Origin: a virus
Reading direction: 5' to 3' (one strand)
DNA: 24,605 nt
Virus record (IMG/VR): IMGVR_UViG_3300020578_003889
Location: 1 to 24,605 of that record
Of this stretch, positions 2,596-20,925 are shown piece after piece. Both the position numbers and the translations under genes were made by a program. Position 1 is the stretch's first letter. Every line of letters begins with the position of its first letter. Under the pieces are notes generated by a model that saw nothing but the letters and a program-made list of their open reading frames with translations, made no database searches and had not been told where the DNA came from.

Positions 2596-3120
2596 TTATC
2601 CTTGGTAGGTGGCTGAATTTGCACCATGCTCAAATACTTCTACACTTTTTATACGCACAGTGGGATTGATCGGATAACGCATAGCGCCACCGGCTAACAT
2701 TTCAGCCATCTTGTCATAGCACATCTTGGCAAACATTTCACAGCCTACACCCGGAACGATGCGTAGATCACACAATGCGCCTCGTTCGTATGGTTTGACT
2801 GTTTCTACACTGCCTGTTCCGGACACAGGCATATTGCCTTGATGACTCATTCTCACAAAAAAGTCTAGATGGGGATCATCTTCAGCAATTAATAAGGTGT
2901 GATCAAACATGTAATCTGCCCAGGCTTTGAATTCTTTGAGGCCTCCAAAGTCCATACACCAGTTCTTATCATCTAGTGTGTCGCATTCAAACACAAGTCT
3001 GATACCTATTGAGTATCCGTGCAGTGTAGAACAATGACTGTGTGTAGCACGCCATTGCCTGAAGCAACATGATAGTCCTCGGTCGTTACCATATGTTTTT
3101 GTTGAATAAAACTTTGCCAT
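2596..3120 (-). CDS. queD: QueD-like 6-carboxy-5,6,7,8-tetrahydropterin synthase
   Basis: QueD turns 7,8-dihydroneopterin triphosphate, the FolE product, into 6-carboxy-tetrahydropterin, the QueE substrate. The 174-residue protein shows the T-fold pattern: a zinc/catalytic segment THSHCSTLHGYS (H27, H29, C30, H34), CMDFGGLKEF (about 55-64), FDHTLL with D73-H74, and the C-terminal substrate-anchoring Glu in EVFEHGANSATY. The usual HGH zinc pair reads HGY here (Y36), so H29 may replace the missing ligand; this is inference. The start has AGGAG seven bases upstream. It is the first gene after a late-type promoter and a hairpin that includes part of the Shine-Dalgarno sequence. It could belong to the wider 6-pyruvoyl-tetrahydropterin synthase family, but the adjacent queE favours QueD. 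Confidence 0.85.
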   Translation of the reverse strand: MAKFYSTKTYGNDRGLSCCFRQWRATHSHCSTLHGYSIGIRLVFECDTLDDKNWCMDFGGLKEFKAWADYMFDHTLLIAEDDPHLDFFVRMSHQGNMPVSGTGSVETVKPYERGALCDLRIVPGVGCEMFAKMCYDKMAEMLAGGAMRYPINPTVRIKSVEVFEHGANSATYQG

Positions 3121-3216: not shown

Positions 3217-3765
3217 TTAATTGGCCCACCACGATTCCCATGGGAACACTGCCCAACAAGGATCATCAAATTTATTAATCTTTTTAGCACTGTAATCAAT
3301 GTCTTTAAAATGACTTGATTCGTTGTTAACTAACACTGCAAATTTAACATTGCGATTCCATATGGCGGACCAAGCCGGATGATCGGGCAAGCAACCAGAT
3401 GGCCAATCCCTTTTGATCCATTCCAGTGTAGCACCGGTATCGTTAATGTCGTCTACTATTAAAATGTTTTTACGGTAAGCAGGATCTGTATCTGCGTCTC
3501 CGGAACCGCGTTCTTCTTTTGGTACATATCCAAAAGCCTGTTCGGCCATCCACAGATTACTTTCTGATTCGCCGCCGTCGCGTAAACTAATTTTTAATGT
3601 TTCGCATGGAACATTAAAGTAATGACTAATCATCAAAGCAGGCACTAATCCACCACGAGTAATGCCAAGTACATAATCAGGTAGCCATGCACTATTAACA
3701 ATGTCTCTACAAAGTGAATGCACTAGGCCCTTTAATTCACGATTTGATATAGTAAGGTTATTCAT
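3217..3765 (-). CDS. type I phosphoribosyltransferase (purine/xanthine-guanine type)
   Basis: The 182-residue protein carries the PRPP-binding loop of type I phosphoribosyltransferases, ILIVDDINDTGATLEWI (about residues 100-116), and an upstream GITRGGLVPALMISHYF segment typical of the xanthine-guanine/hypoxanthine group. Such enzymes join a free base to PRPP to give a nucleotide. Base specificity cannot be read here. The C-terminus is Trp-rich (CWAVFPWESWW), which may form the base pocket. Its ATG overlaps the stop of the upstream small gene as TAATG. Lying next to queD/queE, it could salvage guanine released when a transglycosylase exchanges bases in DNA; that link is inference from position. 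Confidence 0.8.
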   Translation of the reverse strand: MNNLTISNRELKGLVHSLCRDIVNSAWLPDYVLGITRGGLVPALMISHYFNVPCETLKISLRDGGESESNLWMAEQAFGYVPKEERGSGDADTDPAYRKNILIVDDINDTGATLEWIKRDWPSGCLPDHPAWSAIWNRNVKFAVLVNNESSHFKDIDYSAKKINKFDDPCWAVFPWESWWAN

Positions 3766-4446: not shown

Positions 4447-5124
4447 TTATTCTTTTCTATCTCCAAACAAATAAAGCAAACTTAGAAACAAGTTAATGAA
4501 ATCTAAGTAAAGGGTAAGAGCACCCATAACTTCAATTGCAGGACCGTCTGATTCCATTAATTGCTCTCTAATCTTTTGAGTATCATATGCTGTTAGGCCT
4601 AAGAAGATAACAACCGCCACGGCACTAATTATGGTTTGAAGTAGACTAGATCCTATAAAGATATTTACGATACTTGTAATAATAATTGCTATTAAAGCAA
4701 CTATAAGGTACTTGCCTAAACTATCTAAACTCTGTTTTGTAAAATATCCATACGCACTCATGGTTAGAAATAAAATTGCAGCACCAAAGAATGCACTGGC
4801 AATACTAGCTGCTGTATAAATTACAAAGATAGTGGCAAAACTTAAGCCCATTAGTGCTGCAAATCCATGCAAACATAATTGTGCTGTAGATCTACTTGGA
4901 TTATTACCTAGTACATAACCTACAGCAAATATAGCTGCCAATGGTGCAAATATCACAATCCATTTTACAATACCAGTAAACAAAAATGCCATCAAAGATG
5001 CATTTGATGACACCAACATACTAACAACCATACTGGTAATTACTGCCAATGCCATATTGTTATAAACACGGAGCATGCCAGTGTTTATTTCAGATGGGGT
5101 TTTATAAGGTAAAGAATAATACAT
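4447..5124 (-). CDS. Bax inhibitor-1 (TMBIM/YccA-YbhL) family membrane protein
   Basis: The 225-residue protein has about seven hydrophobic segments and the family's C-terminal signature: LGLTAYDTQKIREQL near 175-190, then GALTLYLDFINLFLSLLYLFG near 200-220. The two aspartates in YDTQ and YLDF match the di-aspartyl pH-sensor pair of BI-1 family calcium-leak channels such as BsYetJ; that mechanism is family knowledge, not shown here. Bacterial members sit in the inner membrane, and E. coli YccA modulates FtsH. In a phage it may alter host membrane proteolysis or ion balance, or delay cell death. The start has a strong AGGAGG nine bases upstream, suggesting high expression. It lies in the minus-strand run after FolE and the zinc-ribbon miniprotein. 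Confidence 0.88.
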   Translation of the reverse strand: MYYSLPYKTPSEINTGMLRVYNNMALAVITSMVVSMLVSSNASLMAFLFTGIVKWIVIFAPLAAIFAVGYVLGNNPSRSTAQLCLHGFAALMGLSFATIFVIYTAASIASAFFGAAILFLTMSAYGYFTKQSLDSLGKYLIVALIAIIITSIVNIFIGSSLLQTIISAVAVVIFLGLTAYDTQKIREQLMESDGPAIEVMGALTLYLDFINLFLSLLYLFGDRKE

Positions 5125-5140: not shown

Positions 5141-5332
5141 TTAATAAAGAACATCAAGAAAACCAAGCACTCGAGTGAATCCGTATAACATAATAGTACA
5201 AAAAATTATTGCCACTGCATAACCTATTAATAATCCTCTACTTGATCCTATCATAGGCATTTGAAATGGACAGCGACCTTGATTCCAAGTACAATCAGGT
5301 GAATATTCTTGTCTGCATATTTCACATTTCAT
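5141..5332 (-). CDS. zinc-ribbon plus single-TM miniprotein (63 aa)
   Basis: The start overlaps the folE stop as ATGA. The N-terminus has CEICRQEYSPDC and then C21 in GRCPFQMP, a set of four cysteines (C3, C6, C14, C21) that could hold one metal ion. A hydrophobic span GLLIGYAVAIIFCTIMLYGF (about 33-52) follows. It probably anchors a small zinc-binding head to the membrane. It sits between folE and the Bax-inhibitor-like gene. No named family is recognised. Confidence 0.65.
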   Translation of the reverse strand: MKCEICRQEYSPDCTWNQGRCPFQMPMIGSSRGLLIGYAVAIIFCTIMLYGFTRVLGFLDVLY

Positions 5333-6024
5333 CTTGGTGCAAACTCTTGTTGTAGTTTGATATTATCAAAAAATTCTTTCTTAGTGCTTTGGTCATCTTT
5401 GAACGCACCTCTTAGCACTGTTGTCTGGGTAAGACTACTGTGTGCCATAATTCCGCGATTCTCACAACAGCCATGTGTGGCCTGAATATACACACCAATG
5501 TCATTGGCGCCAGTAGCCTTGCCAATCTCTTGGGCAATAGTATTGGCCAGTTCTTCCTGTAGAGTGCCGCGGCGAGCACACCACTGTGCAATGCGTGTAT
5601 ACTTGCTCAAGCCAATGAGTTTATCGGCAGCAATAATACCAATGTAGGCAACACCGCTGACCGGCTGATGATGGTGACTACACATACTGCGAAGTTCGCT
5701 GCGTACAACCAGCATGCCTTCATAGCGATCAGTGCTGTCATTGGGAAAGGCTGTAGTGTCAGGTGCAGGCTCATATCTGCCTGCCATTATTTCGTTGAAG
5801 TACATCTTGGCCAGGCGACGTGCTGTGCCCTGACTATTTGGATCGTTTTCGCGATCAATAAGCAGACGATCCAGCACTAGCTCGAAGGCTTCGGTGGCCT
5901 CGTCAATGAGCTTGTGCTTCATTTCTTTATTGACATATTCGCTGATGTTATCGCCAGCCCAAAAGCGTTTTCCGTCACGTCGCATATTTTCTTTAATTGC
6001 CTGTGCTAGATATTTTCCTGACAT
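5329..6024 (-). CDS. folE: FolE, GTP cyclohydrolase I
   Basis: FolE opens GTP to 7,8-dihydroneopterin triphosphate, the first step of both folate and 7-deazaguanine synthesis. The 231-residue protein has the zinc-ligand segments SMCSHHHQPVSG (C115, H118) and ATHGCCENRGI (C186), and the signature KLIGLSKYTRIAQWCARR with LQEELANTIA. The catalytic His of HGC is H184. Its length is normal for type IA enzymes. The ATG at 6024 follows the upstream stop with no gap (TAAATG), with GGAG nearby. With QueD and QueE it completes the route from GTP to CDG, so here it more likely serves base modification than folate, although it could do both. Confidence 0.93.
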   Translation of the reverse strand: MSGKYLAQAIKENMRRDGKRFWAGDNISEYVNKEMKHKLIDEATEAFELVLDRLLIDRENDPNSQGTARRLAKMYFNEIMAGRYEPAPDTTAFPNDSTDRYEGMLVVRSELRSMCSHHHQPVSGVAYIGIIAADKLIGLSKYTRIAQWCARRGTLQEELANTIAQEIGKATGANDIGVYIQATHGCCENRGIMAHSSLTQTTVLRGAFKDDQSTKKEFFDNIKLQQEFAPR

Positions 6025-6609
6025 TTATTCTCCAATAATTGTAATATCTCTTAGATCTGGATATTCGTGATATTTAGGCGGTTCGTTTACAAAGTATAAT
6101 TTTTCTAAACCACGTCTTGCATCTTCAATGGTGGGACGATAATGGTAACCAACCTGGAAAACATGTTGCGATTGCCATGGTTGTGTTGAAAGATCGCGGC
6201 CATCATACCTCTGTCGTAATAAAAACTCATACGCCTGCTTGTCGTCTAACAGTATAGCACCACCGTGGCCTATCTGTAAAGGCTTGTTATGACCGAAACT
6301 TAAACATTGCATTTGACCGGGTTTGTACATTCCCGTTTCTAATCTACGAGCACTATCCCAAATATCTGTGCCATAGAAACGATATTCTCCCGTCCATTTT
6401 TCTGGAACTAATTTATATTCTATGCCTAATTTATGCATGGTCATAGGAATAGAAAGATAGGTGTATGCTGTAAATTGTACTCGTTTTACTTTACAATATC
6501 TAAGACACAACTCAATTGCATGAGTACAGCAATCAGTCATTATGGCGTAGGGTGCTCCGGTTTTTTTTGCTAGTAGTTGTTCGAATTGTGAAATTTCTTC
6601 AAATGCCAC
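6025..6609 (-). CDS. short DegT/DnrJ/EryC1/StrS-like PLP protein
   Basis: With a GTG start at 6609 (overlapping galE by 11 bases) the protein has 194 residues; a TTG at 6636 would add nine. Features of sugar aminotransferases of the DegT/StrS family are PYAIMTDCCTHAIELCLR (cofactor phosphate region), DIWDSARRLETG (pyridine-nitrogen Asp) and SFGHNKPLQIGHGG, whose Lys aligns with the PLP Schiff-base lysine. Family members are usually about 370 residues, so this is roughly half size and lacks much of the C-terminal domain. It may be a minimal enzyme or a non-catalytic relative. With the adjacent epimerase and glycosyltransferase it suggests synthesis of an amino-sugar or other nucleotide sugar. 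No start has a convincing Shine-Dalgarno. Confidence 0.7.
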   Translation of the reverse strand: MAFEEISQFEQLLAKKTGAPYAIMTDCCTHAIELCLRYCKVKRVQFTAYTYLSIPMTMHKLGIEYKLVPEKWTGEYRFYGTDIWDSARRLETGMYKPGQMQCLSFGHNKPLQIGHGGAILLDDKQAYEFLLRQRYDGRDLSTQPWQSQHVFQVGYHYRPTIEDARRGLEKLYFVNEPPKYHEYPDLRDITIIGE

Positions 6610-7564
6610 GAGTATACCATCGATGTGCCGAATCAACGATTTGATTTACGGTTGAATAATTTGGCCGCCAGCCCAGTATGTTCTTTGCTAGTGTAGCATC
6701 GGCAATTAATCGGTCAGGATCTCCAGGCCTGCGTGGGCCTACAAATAATTTTAACTGACCATAGTGAAGTGTAATGTAATCTACTATCTCTTGATTGCTG
6801 ATACCGGTATTAGTACCAAGATTAAACACTGCATATTGCTTATTTTTATTCCATTGTATTGCACGATTGTGTGCATCAGCTAGATCCCAGACATGTATAT
6901 AATCTCTTATGCAAGTCCTATCTGGAGTATTGAAATCTACACCATTTAGTGTAAAGAATTCGTCACGAATTTTTGATTCTAATAATCTTGCTATGATATG
7001 TCCTGCACCTGGTGCTTGACCTAGATCGTAATTATAAGGTTCGGCACCTGCTGCATTAAAGTATCTAAAACATACCGCAGGTAGATCATACGCCTGATTA
7101 TAATTTAATAAAACTTGTTCAACGATATCTTTAGTATGGCCATATGGACTAATGGGATTTATCCTGTCTGTTTCAACCAATGGAACATGGTCAGGATTAC
7201 CGTACACACTAGCACTAGAACTAAAAAGAATAAGCGGTTTCTTTTGATAATCCTTAACATGATTTAAAAATGTTATAGTCTTTGCTACATTGTTATCATA
7301 ATACTTTGCTGGATCTTCTACACTTTCTCTGACAGAAATATCTCCAGCACAGTGTACAATGACATCAGGTTGAAATTCATCTAACCATAATAGGCTCTGC
7401 TTTGACACATAATCGGCGTGTAAGAAACCATCAATATTTTTTAGTGTATGATCTCTGCGTTCTCGGTCAATCGTATATACTTGACTGCTTTCGTTGCACT
7501 GTTTGAGATAACGAGCGATGTGACCACCAATATAGCCACATCCTCCGGTGACAACTATTTTCAT
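6599..7564 (-). CDS. galE: NAD-dependent epimerase/dehydratase, UDP-glucose 4-epimerase (GalE)-like
   Basis: The 321-residue protein is an extended short-chain dehydrogenase. It has the Rossmann motif TGGCGYIGGH (GxxGxxG at 7-13), HCAGDISVRESVEDP, the catalytic SSSASVYG (about 115-122) and YGHTK (Y141, K145), then FRYFNAAGAEP and the GalE-type RTCIRDYIHVWDLADAH. GalE interconverts UDP-glucose and UDP-galactose (or the N-acetyl forms). Its ATG overlaps the glycosyltransferase stop (TGATG), and its end overlaps the PLP protein, so the three are one unit making and transferring a sugar. Specificity for UDP-glucose is inferred from overall motifs. Confidence 0.88.
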   Translation of the reverse strand: MKIVVTGGCGYIGGHIARYLKQCNESSQVYTIDRERRDHTLKNIDGFLHADYVSKQSLLWLDEFQPDVIVHCAGDISVRESVEDPAKYYDNNVAKTITFLNHVKDYQKKPLILFSSSASVYGNPDHVPLVETDRINPISPYGHTKDIVEQVLLNYNQAYDLPAVCFRYFNAAGAEPYNYDLGQAPGAGHIIARLLESKIRDEFFTLNGVDFNTPDRTCIRDYIHVWDLADAHNRAIQWNKNKQYAVFNLGTNTGISNQEIVDYITLHYGQLKLFVGPRRPGDPDRLIADATLAKNILGWRPNYSTVNQIVDSAHRWYTRGI

Positions 7565-8757
7565 CAGTACTTACTTTCGTGAGTATGTCGTCTATAGTCA
7601 GTGCTCATACGCAACCATTGTTCTCCCTTGCCTTCGAGAATATCGCAGATGCGATCAATAGTTGCATCGTTCCACGCACTAAATTTACCCATGTTGGCGT
7701 GCGGATGTTGTAGTAAGGGTACAAGTTTTTGTACTGCATCTCTAAGCGACCACGGGACATAAAGTCTCTCGCTATCATTTGCAAAAGCTTCGGGGAAACT
7801 TCTGTAGGCTGGGTATAGTATATTAGCCCCAAGAGCGTCCGCTTCGCTAGCTGTATTTGATACCCAATCCTGAAGAGCACAATTAAAAAGTACTCGCGTA
7901 TCGTTAAGTAGTGCATAGTAATCATTCTTTTCAAGATCTTCATGTACTGTCAGTTTGCCTTCTCTTTGTAGTCTGCGTGTACGATCCATGTATGAACTAT
8001 TGTTGGATCTCAGTTTACTGCCACTAAACACACAGAATTCAACTTGTGGCCAGTTATTATAAGGCAATTCCTGTAGTCTACAATATTCCTCAATGAGATC
8101 CATGTAAAAGTCAGGTTGCTTTTCTTGATCCCATCTAGCAGCAAACCCTACACGGTAAGTACGATCTTTAAACGGTTTCAGTTCACCGGTTACACGACTG
8201 CGAACTTCGTTTTGACCAAATGCAAGACCACTAATATTGTACACTGGTGCCTGCCATCCTGCAACCTTCATGTGCATGACCATTTCTTCGTTAGTAGCAA
8301 GAACAATATCCGCAAATGAATCTACCATCTTTTCATAGTGACCCATCCACGTTTGCATGCCCCAGACGTGAACAAAATCATCTGGGTCAATAGTTTGTGC
8401 AAGACAACGAACGGCAATGCGAGGACGCATATTACTAGGCACTTGATCAAGAATATAAGGTAGGCTCTCGATGCCGGGTTGAAACATGTCTTCAAAGTAT
8501 ATAATGTCTTCACTAGTAACTTCGCCTGCTTTCATTCGTCGAATCAAATTCATCAACTGACTCATACCAAAGTATGTACGACCATGTGCATCTAATACTT
8601 GGCCAGTAACAATTGCTTGATCGTTACTGAGTGTTTCTCCGGGCACGATTTCATAATCAATACCCCTGCGCTCAAATACAGCCTGATTCCACTCTTGTAG
8701 TTGTAGTGTGTATCTTGCTTTGTAAGGCTCTAGGCCCATATACCAAAGTTTACGCAT
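7564..8757 (-). CDS. GT-B glycosyltransferase (GT4-like)
   Basis: The 397-residue protein has the layout of a two-domain GT-B transferase. An N-terminal half includes MRKLWYMGLEPYKARYT and an acidic IIYFEDMFQPG, and a C-terminal half opens with YRVGFAARWDQEKQPDFYMDL, the usual start of the nucleotide-sugar domain. VSNTASEADALGANILYP near 305-325 matches the position of the donor-binding E-x7-E-like segment. The acceptor is unknown: DNA base, virion protein or host envelope sugar are possible. It lies directly upstream of galE and overlaps the preceding small gene by eight bases. Confidence 0.78.
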   Translation of the reverse strand: MRKLWYMGLEPYKARYTLQLQEWNQAVFERRGIDYEIVPGETLSNDQAIVTGQVLDAHGRTYFGMSQLMNLIRRMKAGEVTSEDIIYFEDMFQPGIESLPYILDQVPSNMRPRIAVRCLAQTIDPDDFVHVWGMQTWMGHYEKMVDSFADIVLATNEEMVMHMKVAGWQAPVYNISGLAFGQNEVRSRVTGELKPFKDRTYRVGFAARWDQEKQPDFYMDLIEEYCRLQELPYNNWPQVEFCVFSGSKLRSNNSSYMDRTRRLQREGKLTVHEDLEKNDYYALLNDTRVLFNCALQDWVSNTASEADALGANILYPAYRSFPEAFANDSERLYVPWSLRDAVQKLVPLLQHPHANMGKFSAWNDATIDRICDILEGKGEQWLRMSTDYRRHTHESKY

Positions 8758-8983: not shown

Positions 8984-9418
8984 CTAAATTTTTATTGATA
9001 GAGAGGGTTGATGAGTAGCATAGGTGATAGAGCAACCATTTTCGTTATCTTCACTTACACTTATTGTAACATTTCTTTCAGGATATCTGTTTGCTATTTG
9101 AACATATAGATCATCGGCAATCATTTCACAGCTTTTATAATCCAATGCTAAAATCGAATTGGAATTACTATACAAGCTTTCCAACCAGCGTTTGAATTGG
9201 ATGAATTCGATGTCCCTGTCATTATGGAACACATCGATTGACACCCTAAAGTGGAAGATGTGACGATGAGGGTAACCAAGAAAAGATACATCCGCAAGAC
9301 CAGGATCCTCCAATGCTGCTGGGTATTTATGGATCCCTTCGCGAGTAAATGTTACCCAAATTTGTCTTGCTGCACGTTCCATTATTCTATCTACTGTTTG
9401 TCTTTGTTCTTGATTCAT
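8984..9418 (-). CDS. possible T-fold (PTPS/QueD-like) protein of unknown function
   Basis: The 144-residue protein has FLGYPHRHIFHFRVSIDV (H51, H53 and H56 region), LDYKSCEMIADDLYVQIANR and a final VTISVSEDNENGCSITY. The order of a His-rich strand, a helix with an acidic pair, and a strand ending in an acidic, Gly-containing segment recalls the layout of 6-pyruvoyl-tetrahydropterin synthases, where it would be one T-fold domain. The resemblance is faint and the family is not confirmed. A second pterin-like fold would fit the 7-deazaguanine genes nearby. The Shine-Dalgarno is weak; upstream is the AT-rich end of the radical SAM gene. Confidence 0.55.
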   Translation of the reverse strand: MNQEQRQTVDRIMERAARQIWVTFTREGIHKYPAALEDPGLADVSFLGYPHRHIFHFRVSIDVFHNDRDIEFIQFKRWLESLYSNSNSILALDYKSCEMIADDLYVQIANRYPERNVTISVSEDNENGCSITYATHQPSLSIKI

Positions 9419-9427
9419 AGTTATTAA

Positions 9428-10621
9428 TTATATAAAGGATTTATATATATCAGGAAAAACTTTATGACTATCTAAGTTACGTCTTTGATCTAGTACCTTT
9501 AATTCATGCAACAGTGTTGATTCATAATTAGAATTATTATTTAAAAAAGAAATTAGCGTATTAAGTTTATTATTAAATCTTTCATCTTTAGCGTTTAATG
9601 ATATTGTATTTTTTTGAATCAAATTTTGTTTAATTATTTTGATACATTCGTCAATGTAATATGGCGGCAAACTTCTAGGATCCAAATAATCTTTTTTTTG
9701 CCCTGCATGCACATAATAGATATCAAAACAATTTTTTGGAAACCCTTCTTTTACCAAAGCATCTATGGCTGTAAAAATAGTTTTAGCATTTAATGATGTG
9801 TAAGTCATACTAAAACTTATGTTCTCAATGCCTACATCTTTTTTAAGTTTAAGTAGGTTGTTGTAGAAATTATTCCAATCACCAGGATATCTAATATAGT
9901 TATAACGATCTTCCATGTCATCAAAACTTACTATCCAGTGACAACTTTTAAATTTAAGCAAAGTTTCATAAATCTTATTATTTGTTATTAAAGAAAGATT
10001 TGTATTGATGCTTATATTGCAATCTAAATTTACTTCAGATAAAGCAGTAAGAATTGATAAATTTTCTTTTATTAACAATGGCTCACCACCGGCTATATAA
10101 AGATAACTTATTTTAGATATATTGTCAAGATAATATTGAATTAAGTCATCTATTTTGTCTTTTGGTAATCCAATTGGTCGATTTAATTCATCTGCCCAAA
10201 GTGAACTACATAATGGTCCACAATATACACATGCATAATTGCATGTGTTTCTAAATCGTAGATCTGCATATCTATATTCAAACGCATTTACATCAGAATA
10301 AATTTTTTTACTATTATTTTGTTCGCGTTCAATAAAATCATAACGCATTGTACTTTTATAGTTGAAATCTGCAGGTTTTATTGTGTTATCTTGAGGATAG
10401 CATGCTTTACAGCCAGCAACTTGCATTCTGGATATCATGTCTTGTTTTATTTGTATAACTTTATTACTGTTTAGTATAGAGTTGATAGAATCATTATTTA
10501 GATTCCCTAATTCGTTTTTAGATTGACAGCAGTTTTCAACTCTACCATCTCCCCAAATGTAAAAAGTTGTCCAAGGCGCAGGGCAAAACTCTTTGTTATT
10601 ATAATATTCTTCGTCTTTCAA
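9428..10621 (-). CDS. twitch-domain radical SAM protein
   Basis: The 397-residue protein has two metal regions. The N-terminal twitch-like part holds FCPAPWTTFYIWGDG (C13), VENCCQS (C31, C32) and GCKACYP (C71, C74), suited to an auxiliary Fe-S cluster. The radical SAM core follows with CNYACVYC (C127, C131, C134) and YIAGGEPLL (GGEP 178-181). Such enzymes start radical chemistry on peptides or small molecules; the substrate here is unknown. The start is TTG, overlapping the upstream stop as TTGA, and no in-frame ATG exists early. It is clearly related to the protein at 19301-20464: both share NKI(Y/F)E-LL, W-(I/V)SFD and the cysteine spacing. Confidence 0.85.
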   Translation of the reverse strand: MKDEEYYNNKEFCPAPWTTFYIWGDGRVENCCQSKNELGNLNNDSINSILNSNKVIQIKQDMISRMQVAGCKACYPQDNTIKPADFNYKSTMRYDFIEREQNNSKKIYSDVNAFEYRYADLRFRNTCNYACVYCGPLCSSLWADELNRPIGLPKDKIDDLIQYYLDNISKISYLYIAGGEPLLIKENLSILTALSEVNLDCNISINTNLSLITNNKIYETLLKFKSCHWIVSFDDMEDRYNYIRYPGDWNNFYNNLLKLKKDVGIENISFSMTYTSLNAKTIFTAIDALVKEGFPKNCFDIYYVHAGQKKDYLDPRSLPPYYIDECIKIIKQNLIQKNTISLNAKDERFNNKLNTLISFLNNNSNYESTLLHELKVLDQRRNLDSHKVFPDIYKSFI

Positions 10622-11130
10622 TTTACTATTACATCCATTTTATATTTTGACCAATCAGTAAAACAATTCCTGTGCATCAAATTATGAACACTATGACACC
10701 ATACGCCCGGATTAGTTGCAGCAAAGTCTTTGTCGTCTAGTTTAATTGTAGCATTGTATCCTAATTGTTGTATATATGGCATTTTTACTGATAACATTGG
10801 AATAAATTGATTATATTCTGTTAGTCCAGATTCTGACAAACCTTCTGCTTCGCTTATGTCAATATCTAAAGTGCACCAATAACCCCTGCCTATAAAAGGC
10901 ATAATCATATTTTCCCATCTAGTCCAGTCTGCACTGTCTGCGCGGCCGTTTGGAAAACTTTGATTAGCACCAAAGTAAATGTGTGTACAATTATGAGCAA
11001 TTGCTGCTGCTTCAATTAATTCTTTTTCTTGAACACCAACTACAAATAATGTTTTTTGATTATATGCAGGCGTATGCTCCACTTCTAGACCTACAAAAAG
11101 CCTTGTATTGATGTGTTCTGCTCTATTCAT
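10618..11130 (-). CDS. conserved phage protein of unknown function downstream of the transglycosylase
   Basis: The start chosen is the second of two ATGs (11130) because AAAGGA lies seven bases before it but only one base before the first (11136). The 170-residue protein reads FVGLEVEHTPAYNQKTLFVVG, THIYFGANQSF, GYWCTLDIDI and GYNATIKLDD, ending with NPGVWCHSVHNLMHRNCF. The repeated strand-like segments, conserved His/Asp/Glu and two late cysteines suggest a small enzyme domain, but no family is assigned. It lies two genes downstream of the DpdA-like gene and overlaps the radical SAM start, so it is a candidate partner of either. Confidence 0.7.
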   Translation of the reverse strand: MNRAEHINTRLFVGLEVEHTPAYNQKTLFVVGVQEKELIEAAAIAHNCTHIYFGANQSFPNGRADSADWTRWENMIMPFIGRGYWCTLDIDISEAEGLSESGLTEYNQFIPMLSVKMPYIQQLGYNATIKLDDKDFAATNPGVWCHSVHNLMHRNCFTDWSKYKMDVIVN

Positions 11131-11335
11131 TGCCATATCCTATCCTTTGAGTTTCTTCTTCCCATTGTAGTTTATTCAATCTGCTGATTTCATCTTTTAA
11201 TTGTAATTTTTTCTTTTTTAAATCAGTCAAATATTCTAAATCTACACCTGGATGATTGTTTTGCATTTCGTAAATTTGTTTATCTAATAGTTTATGCATC
11301 TCTTCCAAATGTTTAATTCTGCCTTTATAACTCAT
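11123..11335 (-). CDS. DUF465/YdcH-like short coiled-coil protein
   Basis: The start is ATG at 11335, one base after the transglycosylase stop with GGAG eight bases upstream; a longer frame from 11503 lies mostly inside that gene and is not credible. The 70-residue protein is charged and helical: KGRIKHLEEMHKLLDKQIYE, then DLEYLTDLKKKKLQLKDEI and SRLN. This matches the YdcH/DUF465 pattern of a helical hairpin whose second half carries a Leu and Lys-rich LKKKKLxLKDEI stretch. Its biochemical role is unknown. Confidence 0.72.
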   Translation of the reverse strand: MSYKGRIKHLEEMHKLLDKQIYEMQNNHPGVDLEYLTDLKKKKLQLKDEISRLNKLQWEEETQRIGYGNE

Positions 11336-11336
11336 A

Positions 11337-12893
11337 TTATTGCTCCAAATGTGATTGAATGATATTAGTGGCATCAAAATCTGACATTTTATTTTCAGTG
11401 TTGTCCACAGTTTCAAAAAGTGCATTATACATTGTGTTTGAATTTTTTGTCTTTTTACCTTTGAAGCCTCTAGTGCCAACGATATCCATCCAGTATCTAT
11501 CATAATGTTCTATAATTGACTCAGCAGTATTACGATCCGGTGCTGTAAATATTGCATCAACTATGTCTTCAAATTTTGTGTGATCGCCGTTACGATACCA
11601 AAGCATAGCAGGTCTTTCGCCCGAATCAAATTTTCTATTTGCTCTTTGTACTGATTCTAAATGCATCCATACATTATGTCCCATCATTAATACATAGCTA
11701 AAACTATCCCAACTTGTCTTGCCCTCTTTACCATTTTTATTAATATCCCCGGGTTTATAAATGCATATGTCTTTGATAAGTAAATGTTTGCTTATTGGAC
11801 TTTCATCAAATACATCAAAAATACCATCCTGTAGTACAGCATCTTTGAATGTTCTTGTATCAGTGGCATACTTTTTATCATCTGCACTGGGACTCATTCT
11901 GTAGCACCATTTACCTTGGTTTGGTAAATCAATATGATGATAGACTTGTCCATTGGCAGTTGCAAGAAACGGACTTGCACAATCAAAACTGATAGTAAAA
12001 TTAGGATTGACATATTTACGAACAGCACGTTGGATAACTGTGAGTAATACTGCCCATTCTAACTTTGATGTACCTAAGAAGTGCATCCAGTCATGCACAC
12101 CCTCTTGTAGTAAATTATCATAACGCAAAGTTACTAGACGTTTAAGTATTAAATGTATATCACACATGTTCTGACCGCCCATGGCCCAACCGTCAAAATG
12201 TGTGTCAGGATATTTTGTAGGGTTGCAGTATTCTTTCATGATCTCGTACCATTCGTCAGCTGACGTATGATTGTCACCTTGTAATACATTCAAAAACTTT
12301 GCACCGCCGTTGTGTTTGCCTTTTCGATGCTGCATGAAATATTCATTATTAAACTTTGTAGCATCAACTGCTTGTTGTAAAGCTAGTTTTTTGTCGGTAG
12401 TACTGAAACCAATTTTTGCTGCAACTTTTTGATCATGAATGACCCAGGTAGGAATATCCAGGATCATACCATAGTCAGCGATACCGTCTAGCCATGCAAG
12501 TACAGACTCGCGTTTCTTTTGTGCTTTAGCGCAACCTGAATTGGCTCGCCAATCGCCTTCCCATAGACCCTTGGCAATCTGGAATCCTCCTGAATCTCCT
12601 AACATAAATGTGTCAGGTCCCCGTTTACGAACCATGTCTTCGCTGGGATCATCTTTAGACAAATCTAAGTTTGCGTGTCCACCTGAGTACAGGCTCCACC
12701 GGTAGGGGAACAGGGCCTGTTGGCCGTTGAGCCAATTAAATTGCTCCATGTCCGATAATGCCTGTGGCATACGAGCAGGATCAACATAATCATTGTTAAC
12801 ACGTTGTTTTCCTATAAAGGTTGCATAGAAACCAGATATAGCAGGCAAGAATATAGCATAATCTGATTGTTTAGAAGTTAAATCATCCTGCAT
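11337..12893 (-). CDS. dpdA: TGT-like DNA guanine transglycosylase (DpdA-type)
   Basis: The 518-residue protein aligns by eye with queuine tRNA-guanine transglycosylases. It has MLGDSGGFQIAKG (D100, the general acid/base-type aspartate of DSGGxQ), YGMILDIPTW (D146, at the base-recognition Asp), FLNVLQGDN, FDGWAMGGQN in the GG(L/A)-type base loop, HFLGTS, and SFDCASPFLA, whose D304 matches the nucleophile of FDC. The C-terminal CxCxxC zinc site of tRNA enzymes is absent and the flanking domains differ, as expected for DpdA proteins that insert 7-deazaguanines into DNA. FolE, QueD and QueE in the same window support that role. The start overlaps the sulfotransferase-like gene by 11 bases. An RNA substrate cannot be excluded. 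Subfamily is not assigned. Confidence 0.78.
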   Translation of the reverse strand: MQDDLTSKQSDYAIFLPAISGFYATFIGKQRVNNDYVDPARMPQALSDMEQFNWLNGQQALFPYRWSLYSGGHANLDLSKDDPSEDMVRKRGPDTFMLGDSGGFQIAKGLWEGDWRANSGCAKAQKKRESVLAWLDGIADYGMILDIPTWVIHDQKVAAKIGFSTTDKKLALQQAVDATKFNNEYFMQHRKGKHNGGAKFLNVLQGDNHTSADEWYEIMKEYCNPTKYPDTHFDGWAMGGQNMCDIHLILKRLVTLRYDNLLQEGVHDWMHFLGTSKLEWAVLLTVIQRAVRKYVNPNFTISFDCASPFLATANGQVYHHIDLPNQGKWCYRMSPSADDKKYATDTRTFKDAVLQDGIFDVFDESPISKHLLIKDICIYKPGDINKNGKEGKTSWDSFSYVLMMGHNVWMHLESVQRANRKFDSGERPAMLWYRNGDHTKFEDIVDAIFTAPDRNTAESIIEHYDRYWMDIVGTRGFKGKKTKNSNTMYNALFETVDNTENKMSDFDATNIIQSHLEQ

Positions 12894-13509
12894 AAAAGTT
12901 TATAGATTCAATAAGTTGATAATCTTCTAAGAAGTACCTCCGAAGATTTTTCATGTATTTAGAATTATTTTGCAATGCTTGTAGAAATATATTTTTAAAT
13001 TTTTGTCTTTCTAAACTTGATTGAGTGGTGTGCTGATATTCGTAATTAAAATATCTATTTTCCATTCCATGTTGTTGTAAAAAAAGGCTAAAATATTTTC
13101 TGTAATTATCATTGCACCAAAAAAAAGCACAATTAGAAAGTGACAATCCTTCAAGAAATAACGTTTGTTTTTCTGTGTGATCATCTAACGCCACACGATC
13201 AAAAATTATATCAAAAAAACTTTTAGAAAGATGTGCTGTATCAATTTGATTGTGATATAAAAACATGTATTCTGCAATACCACTGAGCCATCGTTCAACT
13301 GGATCTCTTAAAACTATAATTGCCTGTTTATTATATAAATTATCAGTATGATAATTATAAGTTTCCCAATTCCAATCTTTTAAATTTGGCTTAGTCCATG
13401 AACTAGCATTTTTAGGTATATATACATACATAAGGTCCGACGAAGGATGACTCATACATTCTCCAAATACATGACCTTTGTCAATATAATATTCTAAAAA
13501 TTTTATCAC
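12883..13509 (-). CDS. sulfotransferase-like protein
   Basis: The 208-residue protein has the two PAPS-binding signatures of cytosolic and Golgi-type sulfotransferases: YVYIPKNASSW (5'-phosphosulfate loop, K33) and IVLRDPVERWLSG (3'-phosphate loop, R68 to G77). These proteins move sulfate from PAPS to sugars or other acceptors. It is short but includes both motifs, and the C-terminal part (residues 110-208) is AT-rich and helical. The start is GTG at 13509 overlapping the clamp-like gene stop (GTGA). The acceptor is unknown. No PAPS synthesis gene is visible here, so the host would supply the donor. Confidence 0.8.
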   Translation of the reverse strand: MIKFLEYYIDKGHVFGECMSHPSSDLMYVYIPKNASSWTKPNLKDWNWETYNYHTDNLYNKQAIIVLRDPVERWLSGIAEYMFLYHNQIDTAHLSKSFFDIIFDRVALDDHTEKQTLFLEGLSLSNCAFFWCNDNYRKYFSLFLQQHGMENRYFNYEYQHTTQSSLERQKFKNIFLQALQNNSKYMKNLRRYFLEDYQLIESINFYAG

Positions 13510-14228
13510 TTAGTCTGCGCCGGCAGTATGTAATTATAAATTGCTAGTCCTGAGTCTACTGTAATTTGTGCAGCACCTTCATCGCTAAATCTAATCATTT
13601 TATCGCCAGATAAACTTAAGATACTAATTACGGCACTAATTGGCCAATGCCATGCTTTACTTAGACTGCCTGCAATATCATGTGCAAAGACAAAATTACC
13701 AGCATGACTACTATGATCTCCAAAGTAAAAAATTAAGTTATTGTTTTCTGTTCGAGCAATAAATGTAGTTTCCTCGCTGTTTGCCTGCGCCTGAAATTTT
13801 AATCTTTGTATAGCTGCTACGCTAGGTTCAATTTCTACACCCCATTTAACACCCTTAAACTTGACTGTCTTTAATTGCTCATTTATAACTTCGGCACTCA
13901 TAAATCGATAATCATTTTTAAAATCACCAATTGAGTTTTCAAAGTGAATGCCTAATGGAATATTAGTGTCTTTGTTAATGATACTTAATTTCGCATCATC
14001 TCGATATTCAGGAATGTTTAAAATTGTGTTTAATTTTCCTAAATTAGGCATACCAAAAGTGCCAATAAACTCTGGTACAGGATTATGAAAAGTTGCGTTA
14101 ACAATAACAGTTCTTTCTTCACTTACTGTTTCGATGTTTGTAGTGCTATCTGTGCCAATTATTTTAATTAAATTTATGATTCCTAGGCTATGAGTATGCT
14201 GTACCATGTCGTGTAAATAGTCTTTCAT
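13506..14228 (-). CDS. DNA polymerase sliding clamp, probable gp45 homologue
   Basis: The 240-residue protein has the strand-rich layout of phage clamps. Two supporting segments are GTFGMPNLGKLNTILN (near 57-72) and the C-terminal MIRFSDEGAAQITVDSGLAI, ending in YNYILPAQTK; the latter resembles the GAAKF...ANYVVALEA end of T4 gp45. A clamp tethers the replicative polymerase to DNA and, in T4, activates late transcription. The nearby polymerase ends in TTFDSLFSFE, which looks like a clamp-binding tail. A strong sigma70-like promoter and TGGAGA Shine-Dalgarno lie upstream. The match is by pattern rather than a proven alignment. Confidence 0.62.
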   Translation of the reverse strand: MKDYLHDMVQHTHSLGIINLIKIIGTDSTTNIETVSEERTVIVNATFHNPVPEFIGTFGMPNLGKLNTILNIPEYRDDAKLSIINKDTNIPLGIHFENSIGDFKNDYRFMSAEVINEQLKTVKFKGVKWGVEIEPSVAAIQRLKFQAQANSEETTFIARTENNNLIFYFGDHSSHAGNFVFAHDIAGSLSKAWHWPISAVISILSLSGDKMIRFSDEGAAQITVDSGLAIYNYILPAQTK

Positions 14229-15230: not shown

Positions 15231-15238
15231 TATTTATT
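15231..15238 (-). promoter_or_regulatory. late-type promoter octamer for the methyltransferase gene
   Basis: The minus strand reads AATAAATA, matching the relaxed NATAAATA late motif of marine T4-like phages. It overlaps the polymerase stop and sits 24 bases before the methyltransferase ATG at 15207, a good distance for a short leader. Confidence 0.4.
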
Positions 15239-17894
15239 CAAATGAAAACAGGCTATCAAAAGTTGTCTTGATGTCTGTATGCGAGGGTATATCCCACTCT
15301 AATACTCCTAATAGATTTTCTACTTTTTGATTAACAATTGTGCCTTCCATTTCTCCATCATCAAACGGTAGTTCTCGAAACCACGGTGGTAAATGACTTT
15401 CATCTGTTGGATACCCTACGCTAGTATAACCCAATGGATTGTCTTTTAACTTACAAACAATAGTTTTCATACCATCTACAATAGCCATACTGTATTGGTC
15501 ACCATGCATCCTACGCAAATTGTTCCAATTCATCGCTGCTCTTACATGCCCTGGCATGTTTGCTCGACCTAGTCGTTCTTCTTCTCGGGTGTATTTGGTT
15601 AAGTTATTAACACGCTTAGGTGTACCCTTTTCCCATGCTGGCCTATCTTGGAAAGCAAGTTTAAAATCTCGAACCTTGGTATAGACGTGTTCCGACGCAG
15701 CACCTGTAAGTACATCTGTTAACAAATCACTCAAAAAGTCTTGTACCACTTTGGGTGTATCACTTCGTTTGAGATCAAGACCCATTGCTTTTACTTTACC
15801 TGGCTTACCGTGTGTATCTAATCTGTTGTTTTCTAAATCATAAATGAGAACAGCGTACCGCTTCTTCTTTATAAATAGTCCCTTTGAAGCCACAAGCTCC
15901 CGTCCCCCTTTAATCAGTTCACCCATGTGTCTTGGTACATGACAGGCTCGTTCCATAAATGCAGGGAAACTTGCGTTAACTTGTTCGGCAATTGAATCGT
16001 AGAGTTGTACGCAGATTTCTTTATTCCATTCCATCCGTCCTGATTCGACATCCGCTTGAATTGCTGGCCAAGCCGTGAAATAGCATGAGTCAGTGTCACC
16101 ATAGATGATAGATTTGCCCACATGGTCATACTCTCCGAATATGCATTCATTGATATACGCATCCATGTGTCTCGCGATAATGCGTCCGGTAAGAGTAGTA
16201 CTTTGACCAATTCTCTTGTCAAAAAATCTACAACCTGGATTGAGTATTGCTCCATAGAGACTGTTCAGGTTAATCTTTTTGACCAGTTGTCTCTTATCCC
16301 AAAAAGCCTGGTCTTCTTTCGTAGTAGCTTCTTTTTTCTTGGCTTGCAACTCCTTGCGTTCTGCATACCACCTCTCTAACAACCCAGGCACAACTGCTTT
16401 TTGTTCATAACTAAAGATTGTGCCATTTGCACTTAGCATCCACGGACGATTACTATCAAATATCAGTCGCCATACGTCTGCGGCACTCATAATATCCGAA
16501 CCACTGGCTTCCCAATCAATGGTAATTTCTGTGCCAACTTCTCCATTCATAACTGCTGTATACTCAAGACTGCCAAACATGTTTTCCCAAGCATCTGCAA
16601 AGCTGCTGCCCGAGGCCATTTTGTCTTGAATATACCTTTCAGTCATTATCGGCCGGAGTTGTCCAACAATTGACTCTTGTGCCATGTTAAGAGCGCGGAT
16701 TGCTGACGGGTAAAGACTGTTGATGTCGATCGCTCCGATCCAGTCGTGCATGCCTTTCTTGGGGAAAGCAACATAGGCACCTGCTGCTTGGGTATCTCCT
16801 TGGTCATCTTTTCCTTTCCTATTAGGTACAACCATACCTCGTTGATGTGCTTCATTGATAATCGCCTGCTCAGTTACTGCTACTGCTCCCATTGTAGTAG
16901 GAAGCAATACTGTATTATCATGTGCAAGTTCATTTGCTAGATCTAAAAATCTTAATTTTTTATCTAATTTAGCAACAAGCATAGTATCCTGCCTGTTATA
17001 ATCAATGAACTTAGTAAAGTCTTTATTGTATAACTGATCTAGTGTGCCTTCGTATTGTGTTTTACGCTCATCTAGTTCATATTCGCCGATTGCATCTAAG
17101 GAATAACTGTGTCGCTCTTCATAAGTGTATTTGCGATACAATTGCATATAGTCCATATGCACTCGACCAGTCAAGTCAAAGGTCAAATTCTCTGCACCAA
17201 ATCGTTCAAAGGTCCTTTGCTTAGGCAGTTGTCCCCATAAGCAGAATCTACGAGTGTCATCTTTGTTAAGCACTCTAGTAACACGCATGACCATGTAAGG
17301 AATATCAAAACCTTCTGAGTTCCATCCGCTTAGGATGTCTGCATCATAAATGATATCCAAGAAAGTGCTAAGTAGATCTTCTTCGCGTTCAAACAAGAAA
17401 CAGTTATCGTACCTGTTGCATATTTCTTGTGCCGTAGCCCATGAATAACTTTTGGGTGGCACAACCAATGTAACTAGTCGATCCATCCAATCCAGATAAA
17501 CTGAAATGGCTGTGATAGGATTGAACGGATCTTCAGGTTTTGAGAAACCTCGGACCGGGTCAAAATCAACCTCAATGTCGAAAAAAGCTGTCTGTAGCTT
17601 AGGTGATTCAGCTGCCAAATAGTGTTCTTCAAGACATCGGAATACTGGATTAATATCTGACTCCCAAACACGCTTGTTGCTGTTAATACGCAACTCTTTT
17701 TGAAATTCCTTACTTGTACGGCTCGAAAACCTACTAACAGGAGTGCCGTAGACAGTACGGAACTTACCGCGAGGGTCATCGTAGTAAAAGATGAAAGTGG
17801 CCGGATATTCTTTATACACTCGTTCACCTTCGACACGCTCCACAATGTGGATGCGATCCTGGTTACGATCATATAGTGCGTCAACATAACTCAT
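15234..17894 (-). CDS. family-B replicative DNA polymerase with 3'-5' exonuclease (gp43-like)
   Basis: The 886-residue protein has the full set of family-B motifs: Exo I FFDIEVDF (D106, E108), Exo II SGWNSEGFDIPYM (D207), Exo III DYNRQDTMLV (D313), motif A AIDINSLYPSAI (D400), motif B KKINLNSLYGAI (about 549-560) and motif C IIYGDTDSCYF (YGDTDS at 608-613). The thumb and C-terminal tail follow; the tail ends TTFDSLFSFE, similar to the clamp-binding end of T4 gp43. Proofreading and polymerase sites both look intact. The ATG overlaps the stop of the upstream membrane gene (TAATG). It is the replicative polymerase of this phage. Confidence 0.96.
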   Translation of the reverse strand: MSYVDALYDRNQDRIHIVERVEGERVYKEYPATFIFYYDDPRGKFRTVYGTPVSRFSSRTSKEFQKELRINSNKRVWESDINPVFRCLEEHYLAAESPKLQTAFFDIEVDFDPVRGFSKPEDPFNPITAISVYLDWMDRLVTLVVPPKSYSWATAQEICNRYDNCFLFEREEDLLSTFLDIIYDADILSGWNSEGFDIPYMVMRVTRVLNKDDTRRFCLWGQLPKQRTFERFGAENLTFDLTGRVHMDYMQLYRKYTYEERHSYSLDAIGEYELDERKTQYEGTLDQLYNKDFTKFIDYNRQDTMLVAKLDKKLRFLDLANELAHDNTVLLPTTMGAVAVTEQAIINEAHQRGMVVPNRKGKDDQGDTQAAGAYVAFPKKGMHDWIGAIDINSLYPSAIRALNMAQESIVGQLRPIMTERYIQDKMASGSSFADAWENMFGSLEYTAVMNGEVGTEITIDWEASGSDIMSAADVWRLIFDSNRPWMLSANGTIFSYEQKAVVPGLLERWYAERKELQAKKKEATTKEDQAFWDKRQLVKKINLNSLYGAILNPGCRFFDKRIGQSTTLTGRIIARHMDAYINECIFGEYDHVGKSIIYGDTDSCYFTAWPAIQADVESGRMEWNKEICVQLYDSIAEQVNASFPAFMERACHVPRHMGELIKGGRELVASKGLFIKKKRYAVLIYDLENNRLDTHGKPGKVKAMGLDLKRSDTPKVVQDFLSDLLTDVLTGAASEHVYTKVRDFKLAFQDRPAWEKGTPKRVNNLTKYTREEERLGRANMPGHVRAAMNWNNLRRMHGDQYSMAIVDGMKTIVCKLKDNPLGYTSVGYPTDESHLPPWFRELPFDDGEMEGTIVNQKVENLLGVLEWDIPSHTDIKTTFDSLFSFE

Positions 17895-18732: not shown

Positions 18733-19301
18733 CTAGGCAACCTTTTCTTTATAATTTCAATTACCTTGTCATTTAATACCACTTCATAATGATTACATTC
18801 TAGTTCTATTAAATCCATTATATCTTCTCTCGAGCGCTGACTGTGGATTGTGACTACACCATCGTTGGGTGCTGCAATCCAAGGAGCTGATCCTGTTGTT
18901 GTGACAATATTTAACCAGGGCCGGTCTAAATCAAAATTCATTGCTTTCTTCATTGCCCATGAATTTGGACCTATATCTTTTAACAATCTGCTGTAAGGTA
19001 AAAAATATTTTGCTACGTCAGCAGATTCAGCTCCACCGTACGGCGTACTTAAAGTGACTGCACCTAATACCTCATCTGAAAATTCTTGCGCCAAATGTAG
19101 TGCATAAATGCCACCTAAGCTATGACAAATATAAAACATATCTTTCTGAGCACTCAATAACTCTTTCATGTTTTCTAAATTTTTTTCAAAACCATTTCTA
19201 CTATCATAGTTAATTAAAAGCTCTTTACCTTTAATTTGCTTTCTTATGTAATTGAAACTTTCGCTAGTGGCACTAGCACCGTGTATATAAACTAATAACA
19301 T
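18729..19301 (-). CDS. alpha/beta hydrolase, lipase-like
   Basis: The 190-residue protein is a compact alpha/beta hydrolase. It has the oxyanion-loop HGAS near residue 7, the nucleophile elbow YICHSLGGIYALH (S61), the acid in APNDGVVTIHS (D147) and a late catalytic His in CNHYEVVLND (H171), the right order for a Ser-Asp-His triad. It resembles triacylglycerol lipase/PGAP1-type esterases; the substrate is unknown. There is no signal peptide. It overlaps the next small membrane gene (ATGA) and starts at the stop of the radical SAM gene. It may act on host lipids or remove acyl groups. Confidence 0.8.
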   Translation of the reverse strand: MLLVYIHGASATSESFNYIRKQIKGKELLINYDSRNGFEKNLENMKELLSAQKDMFYICHSLGGIYALHLAQEFSDEVLGAVTLSTPYGGAESADVAKYFLPYSRLLKDIGPNSWAMKKAMNFDLDRPWLNIVTTTGSAPWIAAPNDGVVTIHSQRSREDIMDLIELECNHYEVVLNDKVIEIIKKRLPR

Positions 19302-20464
19302 TATATTTGTCTGTATTCAGGCCATAGATTGTTAAATTTATGCTTAAAATTTGGCCAATAAGTATTTTCCTGAATTTCATGCCAATCATATATGTACAAA
19401 CAATCTTTGTTGTTATCGGCCTCCATTGTAGTTAAATTTTTAGCCATATCTTGTAGAAAATTTATCTGTCTAGGTTGTGTATGATATTTTATTGAGTTTG
19501 TAAGTTCTGTTGCTGCAAACATTTTAAATTTCTTTGGTAAGTTTGCTACCGCTAAAATTGATGGATGGTGTAGTGCATGCCATCTAAAGTTTGGTAAATT
19601 GTTTTTTGAAAAAAAATCGTGTAGTGTAGACAAATTAAGCGCATTATAAATGGAATATACTCCAGCTGTTCCTATAATATGTCCTTGTTTATCTTTTATA
19701 CAATCTTGAAGATATCTAATATTTTGTAGCTGTTTGTCCCAAGTTGCACCATGTCTTACATACTCAAATCTGTCCTCAACGGTGTCAAAACTTATATCCC
19801 ATGCTACATATTTTTTTGATAAAAGTTTTTCAAAAATTTTATTATTTTCTAAAGGCACACTTAAATTTGTAATCAAATTAATATTGACGCTGTCTGAGAT
19901 TACGTCTAATAGTAAATCGTTTTCTTTTTGTAGTAACGGCTCACCTCCTAATAAACCTAAGTTTTTTAGGCTAGAACGATTTTGTTCTATTAGATCAAGA
20001 ATGTTTGGCAGAGTGTCAGTATAATCTAATCTTTCAACGGGTATTTTTTGATACGCAGCCCATTGACTACTTGCATCATGTCCACAATATGTGCAACTTA
20101 AATTACATGTATTACTCCATCTGATATCTAAATTTTGTAAATGTTGATCTTCAAGATTATTAATATCAATTGTTGCACAATTAGAAATATCATCATACCA
20201 ACTACGTTCACTTGCACTAGACATTTGTTCCTGTCTAAGACAATTAGAGCAATTAGGGTGTTCTTGATTATTAAATATCGCTTGTTTGATTTCAGTTAAA
20301 TGATTTGATTTAATAACTTCTTGGATAGGTGTTCGTCTTAAATCTGCAATATTAATAGTACCACCACAACAAGTTTTATAGTCTCCTTGCGGGTTTATAT
20401 GAATGTTAGTCCACGGCGCATAACAAAAGTTACGCCCTATTGTTTTTGAAAGTTGTATAGTCAT
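19301..20464 (-). CDS. second twitch-domain radical SAM protein
   Basis: From ATG 20464 (MTIQLSK) the protein has 387 residues; the earlier ATG at 20488 lies inside a terminator-like hairpin and is unlikely. The twitch-like part has C14 (NFCYAPWTNIHINP), CC at 32-33 (KTCCGG) and C72/C75 (NCSNC). The radical SAM motif CNLSCTYC is at 120-127 and GLLGGEPLL follows. Spacing matches the protein at 9428-10621 nearly residue for residue, so they are paralogues. The C-terminal third is helix-rich and less conserved. The substrate is unknown. It ends at the lipase-like start (19301). Confidence 0.85.
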   Translation of the reverse strand: MTIQLSKTIGRNFCYAPWTNIHINPQGDYKTCCGGTINIADLRRTPIQEVIKSNHLTEIKQAIFNNQEHPNCSNCLRQEQMSSASERSWYDDISNCATIDINNLEDQHLQNLDIRWSNTCNLSCTYCGHDASSQWAAYQKIPVERLDYTDTLPNILDLIEQNRSSLKNLGLLGGEPLLQKENDLLLDVISDSVNINLITNLSVPLENNKIFEKLLSKKYVAWDISFDTVEDRFEYVRHGATWDKQLQNIRYLQDCIKDKQGHIIGTAGVYSIYNALNLSTLHDFFSKNNLPNFRWHALHHPSILAVANLPKKFKMFAATELTNSIKYHTQPRQINFLQDMAKNLTTMEADNNKDCLYIYDWHEIQENTYWPNFKHKFNNLWPEYRQI

Positions 20465-20469
20465 AAAAT

Positions 20470-20489
20470 AATGCGGCTGCTGCCGCATT
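20470..20489 (-). terminator. hairpin downstream of dps
   Basis: AATGCGGC (20470-20477) and GCCGCATT (20482-20489) form a perfect 8-base stem with a 4-base loop. It begins one base after the dps stop and is followed on the minus strand by ATTTTAT, a short U-rich tail, so it may be a weak intrinsic terminator or attenuator before the radical SAM gene. Confidence 0.6.
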
Positions 20490-20490
20490 G

Positions 20491-20925
20491 TTATTTAAGA
20501 GTAGAACGAAGCATCCAAGAATGTTTTGCGTGTGCATCTTGGCGACTGGCCAAGAAATCACTGAGCCCGTGCAGTCCCAGTTCTTCGGCGGCCCTGTAAA
20601 CAATTCGGAGCATTTCTGCCATTTTGTCGCTGTCTTGGAGTAATTCCACTAGCATTGCTTCGGCTGGCAACACTGCCGGATCTTCATCAAGTAGACTTAA
20701 TATACTGAATCTTGTGAACGAACCTGGAGTGTATGTTCCAGTAGCGCGAATTTCTTCTGCAAACTTGTCTATGCTGTTATACACTTCTTCGTATATGTTG
20801 CCAAACAATTCGTGGTATTGTGGAAAGTTAGGACCTTCAACATTCCAATGAAAGTAATGAGCTTTTAAATAAAAAGCATATTCGCTAGCAAAAGCGATTT
20901 TAAGAGCTTTGCGCAATGAGTCCAT
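20491..20925 (-). CDS. Dps-like ferritin-fold protein
   Basis: The 144-residue protein is a four-helix Dps/ferritin-like protein. It has AHYFHWNVEGPNFPQYHELF, with the ferroxidase His residues H26 and H38, and IDKFAEEIRATG with D53 and E57, matching the inter-subunit iron site of Dps. Dps shells oxidise iron with peroxide and protect DNA. A phage copy may limit oxidative damage to host and phage DNA. It is probably transcribed from the AT-rich gap shared with the plus-strand gene, and is followed by a strong hairpin. The length is slightly short because of little N-terminal tail, so DNA binding by that tail is not expected. Confidence 0.88.
   Translation of the reverse strand: MDSLRKALKIAFASEYAFYLKAHYFHWNVEGPNFPQYHELFGNIYEEVYNSIDKFAEEIRATGTYTPGSFTRFSILSLLDEDPAVLPAEAMLVELLQDSDKMAEMLRIVYRAAEELGLHGLSDFLASRQDAHAKHSWMLRSTLK

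Follow-up and report, generated by a model that had tools for sequence, protein, structure and literature searches.

TGTs (tRNA-guanine transglycosylases) use an aspartate to attack the guanosine at its sugar; guanine is released, and a 7-deazaguanine base takes its place. The first step toward 7-deazaguanines is carried out by FolE, and the product of QueE is 7-carboxy-7-deazaguanine. Both dCDG and dDG reportedly occur in phages, and DpdL is said to be a predicted phage 7-carboxy-7-deazaguanine decarboxylase. Sugar-capped pyrimidine derivatives are well known from phage DNA.

The protein compared here with the described systems (the target) is a putative DpdA-superfamily DNA-guanine transglycosylase of 518 aa (from ATG), encoded at positions 11337 to 12893 on the minus strand of a viral DNA stretch of 24,605 nucleotides (IMG/VR record IMGVR_UViG_3300020578_003889), the whole of which is called the window. 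We consider it probable, at roughly 70%, that this DpdA-type enzyme exchanges a 7-carboxy-7-deazaguanine-derived base into phage DNA and that glycosylation follows.

Like DpdA2 of Vibrio phage nt-1 (YP_008125322; Hutinet 2019), the target has no CxCxxC motif and has folE, queD and queE nearby, and the motifs of both proteins stand in the same order (DSGG, LDxP/FDEIP, QG/HGN, GG/SG, HxLG, and SFD/SYD). The DNA of nt-1 is modified (PMC6884629). Unlike the window-type relatives, which are without QueC, the DpdA2 carriers nt-1, KVP40, pf16, and Moby have it, and direct comparison of DpdA2 with the target family gave no tblastn or HMM match. DpdA1 of Enterobacteria phage 9g resembles the target in its proposed reaction, in the absence of CxCxxC, and in a gene position beside clamp and polymerase; however, it has 317 aa, shows no detectable sequence match, and occurs with QueC. 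The bacterial, eukaryotic, and archaeal TGTs (PF01702) share the barrel and the catalytic aspartate and were the best fold matches in the PDB, whereas the target has an extra, predicted helical C-terminal region and was not classed as a TGT because it has neither a PF01702 match nor the CxCxxC zinc site. Bacterial DpdA of the dpd genomic island is alike in superfamily and presumed reaction, but the PADLOC DpdA model and NCBIfam NF041059 missed both the target and its bacterial relatives (E <= 1), and this assignment was also rejected.

Sequence motifs, fold and family of the DpdA-like protein

The three aspartates of the target were found in GDSGGFQ (D100), LDIPTW (D146), and SFDCASP (D304), while residues 233 to 242 read FDGWAMGGQN. 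The initial annotation, which had aligned these aspartates with TGT active-site residues and the last motif with the base-recognition loop, had placed all four correctly. Across an alignment of 79 relatives (identity down to 31%), D100, D146, and D304 were invariant, so the motif is not due to chance; H271, G274, and other residues were likewise invariant.

No CxCxxC was present in the target, as had been noted from its translation, and the same held for each of the 237 phage and 53 bacterial relatives checked. The motif was also missing from the phage 9g DpdA and from all seven DpdA2 proteins tested; since DpdA1 and DpdA2 lack it too, its absence is a weak argument for a DNA substrate, and the argument was dropped. 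A cysteine (C377, conserved in 92% of relatives) and a histidine (H406, 100%) are separated by 29 residues, the spacing of C304 and H333 in E. coli TGT, to which they may correspond judging from the sequence. Because this pair persists at the E. coli TGT spacing, the zinc subdomain appears to have degenerated, not just to have been replaced, which refines the earlier view that the tRNA-gripping domain is not the usual one.

Searches of Pfam, PHROGs, NCBIfam, PADLOC, and PDB sequences (protein or profile) gave no significant match to the target, and fold and profile-profile comparison were therefore used. The AlphaFold2 model (79-row alignment) had a pLDDT of 92.5 and a pTM of 0.89. In this model, the conserved TGT motifs are predicted to sit at the ends of strands 3 to 8 of an eight-stranded barrel, which would reach about residue 335 and be followed by a helical C-terminal region without CxCxxC. 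Foldseek against the PDB gave Zymomonas TGT (1q63) as the top match (E 2.4e-7, probability 1.00), with mouse QTRT1 and archaeosine TGT among the further top solved structures. The TM-scores to TGT were modest (0.40 by query and 0.53 by target), as expected from the long insertions and the differing C-terminus. Matches among the viral models of BFVD included nt-1 DpdA2 (E 1.4e-10), an annotated phage TGT, and a protein whose length, 596 aa, identifies it as the relative from Vibrio phage 2.275.O. HHalign of the target family against DpdA2 gave 94% (E 1e-7) with the catalytic motifs in register, while the comparison with E. coli TGT was weak (21%) and paired FDGWAMGG with FDGYAVGG and FDCASP with FDCVMP. 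The proposal of a DpdA-like enzyme with a TGT barrel and catalytic aspartates was thus upheld by fold, profile comparison, and conservation. The features of the DpdA superfamily found here are the TGT barrel, the catalytic aspartate pair, the recognition motifs, and linked 7-deazaguanine biosynthesis genes.

A tblastn search of 50,697 phage records returned relatives in only 13, all annotated as hypothetical: eleven Pseudomonas jumbo phages (Paride, PA5oct, and their kin), Vibrio phage 2.275.O, and Sinorhizobium phage Phosso. The IMG/VR search gave more than 600 relatives, and about 53 homologues at roughly 25-35% identity were found in bacterial genomes, mainly of Alpha- and Betaproteobacteria. 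In the tree, which the initial annotation had suggested for assigning the subfamily, DpdA2 formed its own clade (100/100) that excluded the target clade, the phage 9g DpdA stood on a separate branch (100/100), and the target grouped with other phage and bacterial members (96/90), with long branches. Marine phage proteins bridging the two groups matched the target family (E about 1e-46) and DpdA2 (E 2e-5). Assignment to DpdA2 was rejected on the tree and the missing direct HMM match, though both are clearly related; assignment to the 9g-type DpdA1 was ruled out by the separate branch and by the lack of a detectable sequence match. The target is a member of a large clade outside DpdA2 that has no name so far and may fall inside DpdA3 or DpdA4. 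The complete regions of Campylobacter phage CP81, a possible DpdA3 reference, gave no match in HHalign of single sequences only. The polymerase of the window was closest to those of the jumbo phages Phosso and Atu_ph07 (46-50%), and the fragment is therefore probably from a jumbo phage.

Gene neighbourhood and QueC distribution

All genes of the neighbourhood described here lie on the minus strand. Just upstream of the DpdA-like gene is a phrog_12062 protein (13506-14228), a probable sliding clamp whose identity comes from its Phosso homologue, annotated as DNA polymerase III sliding clamp, and this is followed further upstream by a family B DNA polymerase (15234-17894; phrog_262, E 6e-185). 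Among 241 loci, DpdA was preceded by the probable clamp in 238, and the polymerase was just upstream in 221. The recurrent genes downstream of DpdA were those for phrog_17812 (196 loci), a 172-aa protein (193), a glycosyltransferase (183), and FolE (131). In the window, the 172-aa protein (10618-11136) is of unassigned function, and its homologue also adjoins DpdA2 in phage ACP17; the phrog_17812 protein (8984-9418) is a QueD/PTPS-type T-fold paralogue by fold and profile match; and the DpdA partner at 7564-8757 is a putative GT-B type glycosyltransferase (weak PF13524 match, E 7e-4). These are followed by a GalE-like nucleotide-sugar epimerase (6599-7564; PF01370, E 4e-45; 83 of 241 loci) and by FolE, GTP cyclohydrolase I (5329-6024; PF01227, E 4e-39; phrog_2197). 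A phosphoribosyltransferase (3217-3765; PF00156, E 8e-11) was near DpdA in 74 of the 241 loci, and its counterpart in the BUCT-ZZ01 cluster is annotated as xanthine-guanine PRTase. The remaining biosynthesis genes encode a QueD, 6-carboxytetrahydropterin synthase-like protein (2596-3120; PF01242, E 7.5e-16; phrog_2389) and a QueE-like radical SAM enzyme (1742-2593; phrog_2076, E 8e-51). FolE was present in 28 and QueE in 29 of the 31 genomes searched. QueC had no match in the 24,605-nt window, which is a fragment, and queC could lie outside it.

The model of the phrog_17812 protein (pLDDT 90.7) had E. coli QueD as its best fold match (E 3e-5, probability 1.00). Against one QueD sequence the protein scored low (12%), and against a QueD profile it scored better (83%); the fold search was the clearest. 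Known QueD structures have a zinc-binding histidine triad and a glutamate that holds the pterin ring. In phrog_17812, H30, H51, H53, and E123 were invariant and, by analogy, would fit this triad and glutamate. In Vibrio phage Bakedbeans (L321:6212-7363), phrog_17812 is fused into a 383-aa protein, of which it makes up the C-terminal part.

The presence of queC, phrog_17812, and the glycosyltransferase was tallied over 38 genomes; these are partly related, so the independent events number fewer than 38 and no p-value is claimed. A clear QueC was found in 7 of the 38 (2.275.O, G024, Moby, nt-1, 9g, KVP40, and pf16), with partial weak matches in G004, G013, and X1 scored as not clear, and all seven were without phrog_17812 and without the glycosyltransferase. 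Every one of the 31 genomes without a clear queC carried phrog_17812, and 29 of them also carried the glycosyltransferase; it was missing from Cellulophaga phage phiST and Rhizobium phage RHph_I1_18. Both states, queC or phrog_17812, occurred inside the target DpdA family and inside DpdA2. Because phiST carries phrog_17812 without QueC, phrog_17812 is a candidate for DpdL.

The homologue of the glycosyltransferase in Phosso is annotated as a glycosyltransferase. A reverse search starting from this protein yielded 65 loci flanked by 6 kb or more on both sides. Of these, 58 contained a DpdA2 or a member of the target DpdA family, and a 9g-type DpdA1 (HHalign >98%) was present in at least two of the remaining seven. 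The glycosyltransferase was paired with DpdA2 in phages BUCT-ZZ01, X1, and ACP17, and seven bacterial loci had the same glycosyltransferase beside a DpdA-like homologue. The pair of phrog_17812 and glycosyltransferase accompanied three DpdA subfamilies, and this recurrence of one partner with different subfamilies is the strongest sign that the glycosyltransferase belongs to the pathway.

Proposed pathway and alternative explanations

DNA is supported as the likely substrate of the putative transglycosylase by its DpdA2 homology and by the neighbouring folE, queD, and queE; the suggestion of DNA in the initial annotation holds on these grounds and not on the missing CxCxxC, which the phage DpdAs checked are without as well. 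In the proposed pathway, FolE, QueD, and QueE would convert GTP to 7-carboxy-7-deazaguanine, which, with no QueC, would not be converted to preQ0, and the QueD-like phrog_17812 protein would probably process it in place of QueC. The product of 11337-12893 would then swap the base into DNA; the neighbouring gene for a probable sliding clamp suggests that this may take place shortly behind the replication fork. By TGT chemistry, D304 is the predicted nucleophile on the sugar of the target guanosine. The putative GT-B glycosyltransferase would probably transfer a sugar, either to the free base or to the base in DNA, for which the GalE-like epimerase perhaps supplies the donor, while the phosphoribosyltransferase may salvage the guanine freed by the exchange. 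The modified base may protect the phage DNA from host nucleases. The weakest link of the proposal is that, if phrog_17812 decarboxylates, there would be no obvious handle for the sugar. The initial annotation, made without pathway context, had listed CDG, preQ0, and 7-deazaguanine as bases to assay; the genes point to a 7-carboxy-7-deazaguanine-derived, probably glycosylated base and not to preQ0. A broader version, in which a QueC-free base, QueD-like processing, DpdA exchange, and a sugar cap make up a pathway that is widespread in phages, spans three DpdA subfamilies, and is shared by some mobile elements of bacteria, is put forward tentatively, at somewhat less than even odds.

The strongest competing explanation is that DpdA inserts a 7-deazaguanine and nothing more, with the glycosyltransferase acting elsewhere (on capsule, protein, or another base) and its linkage incidental. 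Phages phiST and RHph_I1_18, which have phrog_17812 without the glycosyltransferase, favour this, as does Vibrio phage 2.275.O, where the target DpdA family occurs with QueC, QueF, and YhhQ and without the glycosyltransferase. However, the glycosyltransferase tracks the pathway over three DpdA subfamilies, adjoins the bacterial homologues too, and is missing from all seven genomes with a clear queC, and insertion without glycosylation therefore appears unlikely, though it deserves serious weight. It is more doubtful still that a preQ0-type base is made with a QueC from the host or from beyond the fragment. The target DpdA family does occur with a clear QueC in 2.275.O and G024, and the window is only a fragment; against this, no QueC match was found in large closest relatives such as G001, G002, and G003 (135-144 kb), which do carry FolE and QueE, and QueC is likewise missing from Paride, Phosso, and BUCT-ZZ01, whose genomes are complete.

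A phage tRNA-guanine transglycosylase that acts on tRNA of the host or the phage and not on DNA would account for the TGT barrel and TGT residues, and phages with a preQ0 pathway but no DpdA may raise queuosine in host tRNA (Hutinet 2019, PMC6884629). This is very improbable in view of the missing CxCxxC, the kinship to DpdA2, which is carried by a phage with modified DNA, nt-1 (PMC6884629), and the gene position just after clamp (238/241 loci) and polymerase (221/241).

No report of a sugar on a 7-deazaguanine, and none of DpdA joined with a glycosyltransferase in such a pathway, was found in the searchable literature, outside which most subscription papers lie; in the Paride paper, nothing was found on modification of the phage DNA. 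If exchange followed by glycosylation is correct, a sugar-bearing 7-deazaguanine would be a new class of DNA modification, its carriers would include the isolated phages Paride and BUCT-ZZ01 and hence be open to mass spectrometry, and many genes annotated as hypothetical would gain a function. The replacement of QueC by phrog_17812 would also give a rule to predict which 7-deazaguanine a phage uses.

Bacterial loci and other genes of the window

Tyrosine integrases, recognised by eye, were nearby at 35 bacterial loci, and a YhhQ-like protein was present at 8. At the bacterial loci L259-L314, the homologue was often beside a tyrosine integrase and a conserved 550-aa upstream gene. These chromosomal loci resemble DNA-modifying mobile elements.

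The window also encodes two radical SAM proteins at 9428-10621 and 19301-20488, both on the same strand and found in only a minority of related loci, the former with a SPASM domain (Pfam). By eye, a membrane protein at 4447-5124 looks similar to the Bax inhibitor-1 family. A gene for a sulfotransferase-like protein (12883-13509; weak Pfam match) separates DpdA from the clamp in 45 of the 241 loci, and a Dps/ferritin-like protein (20491-20925, by eye) was upstream of the polymerase in 44 of the 241.
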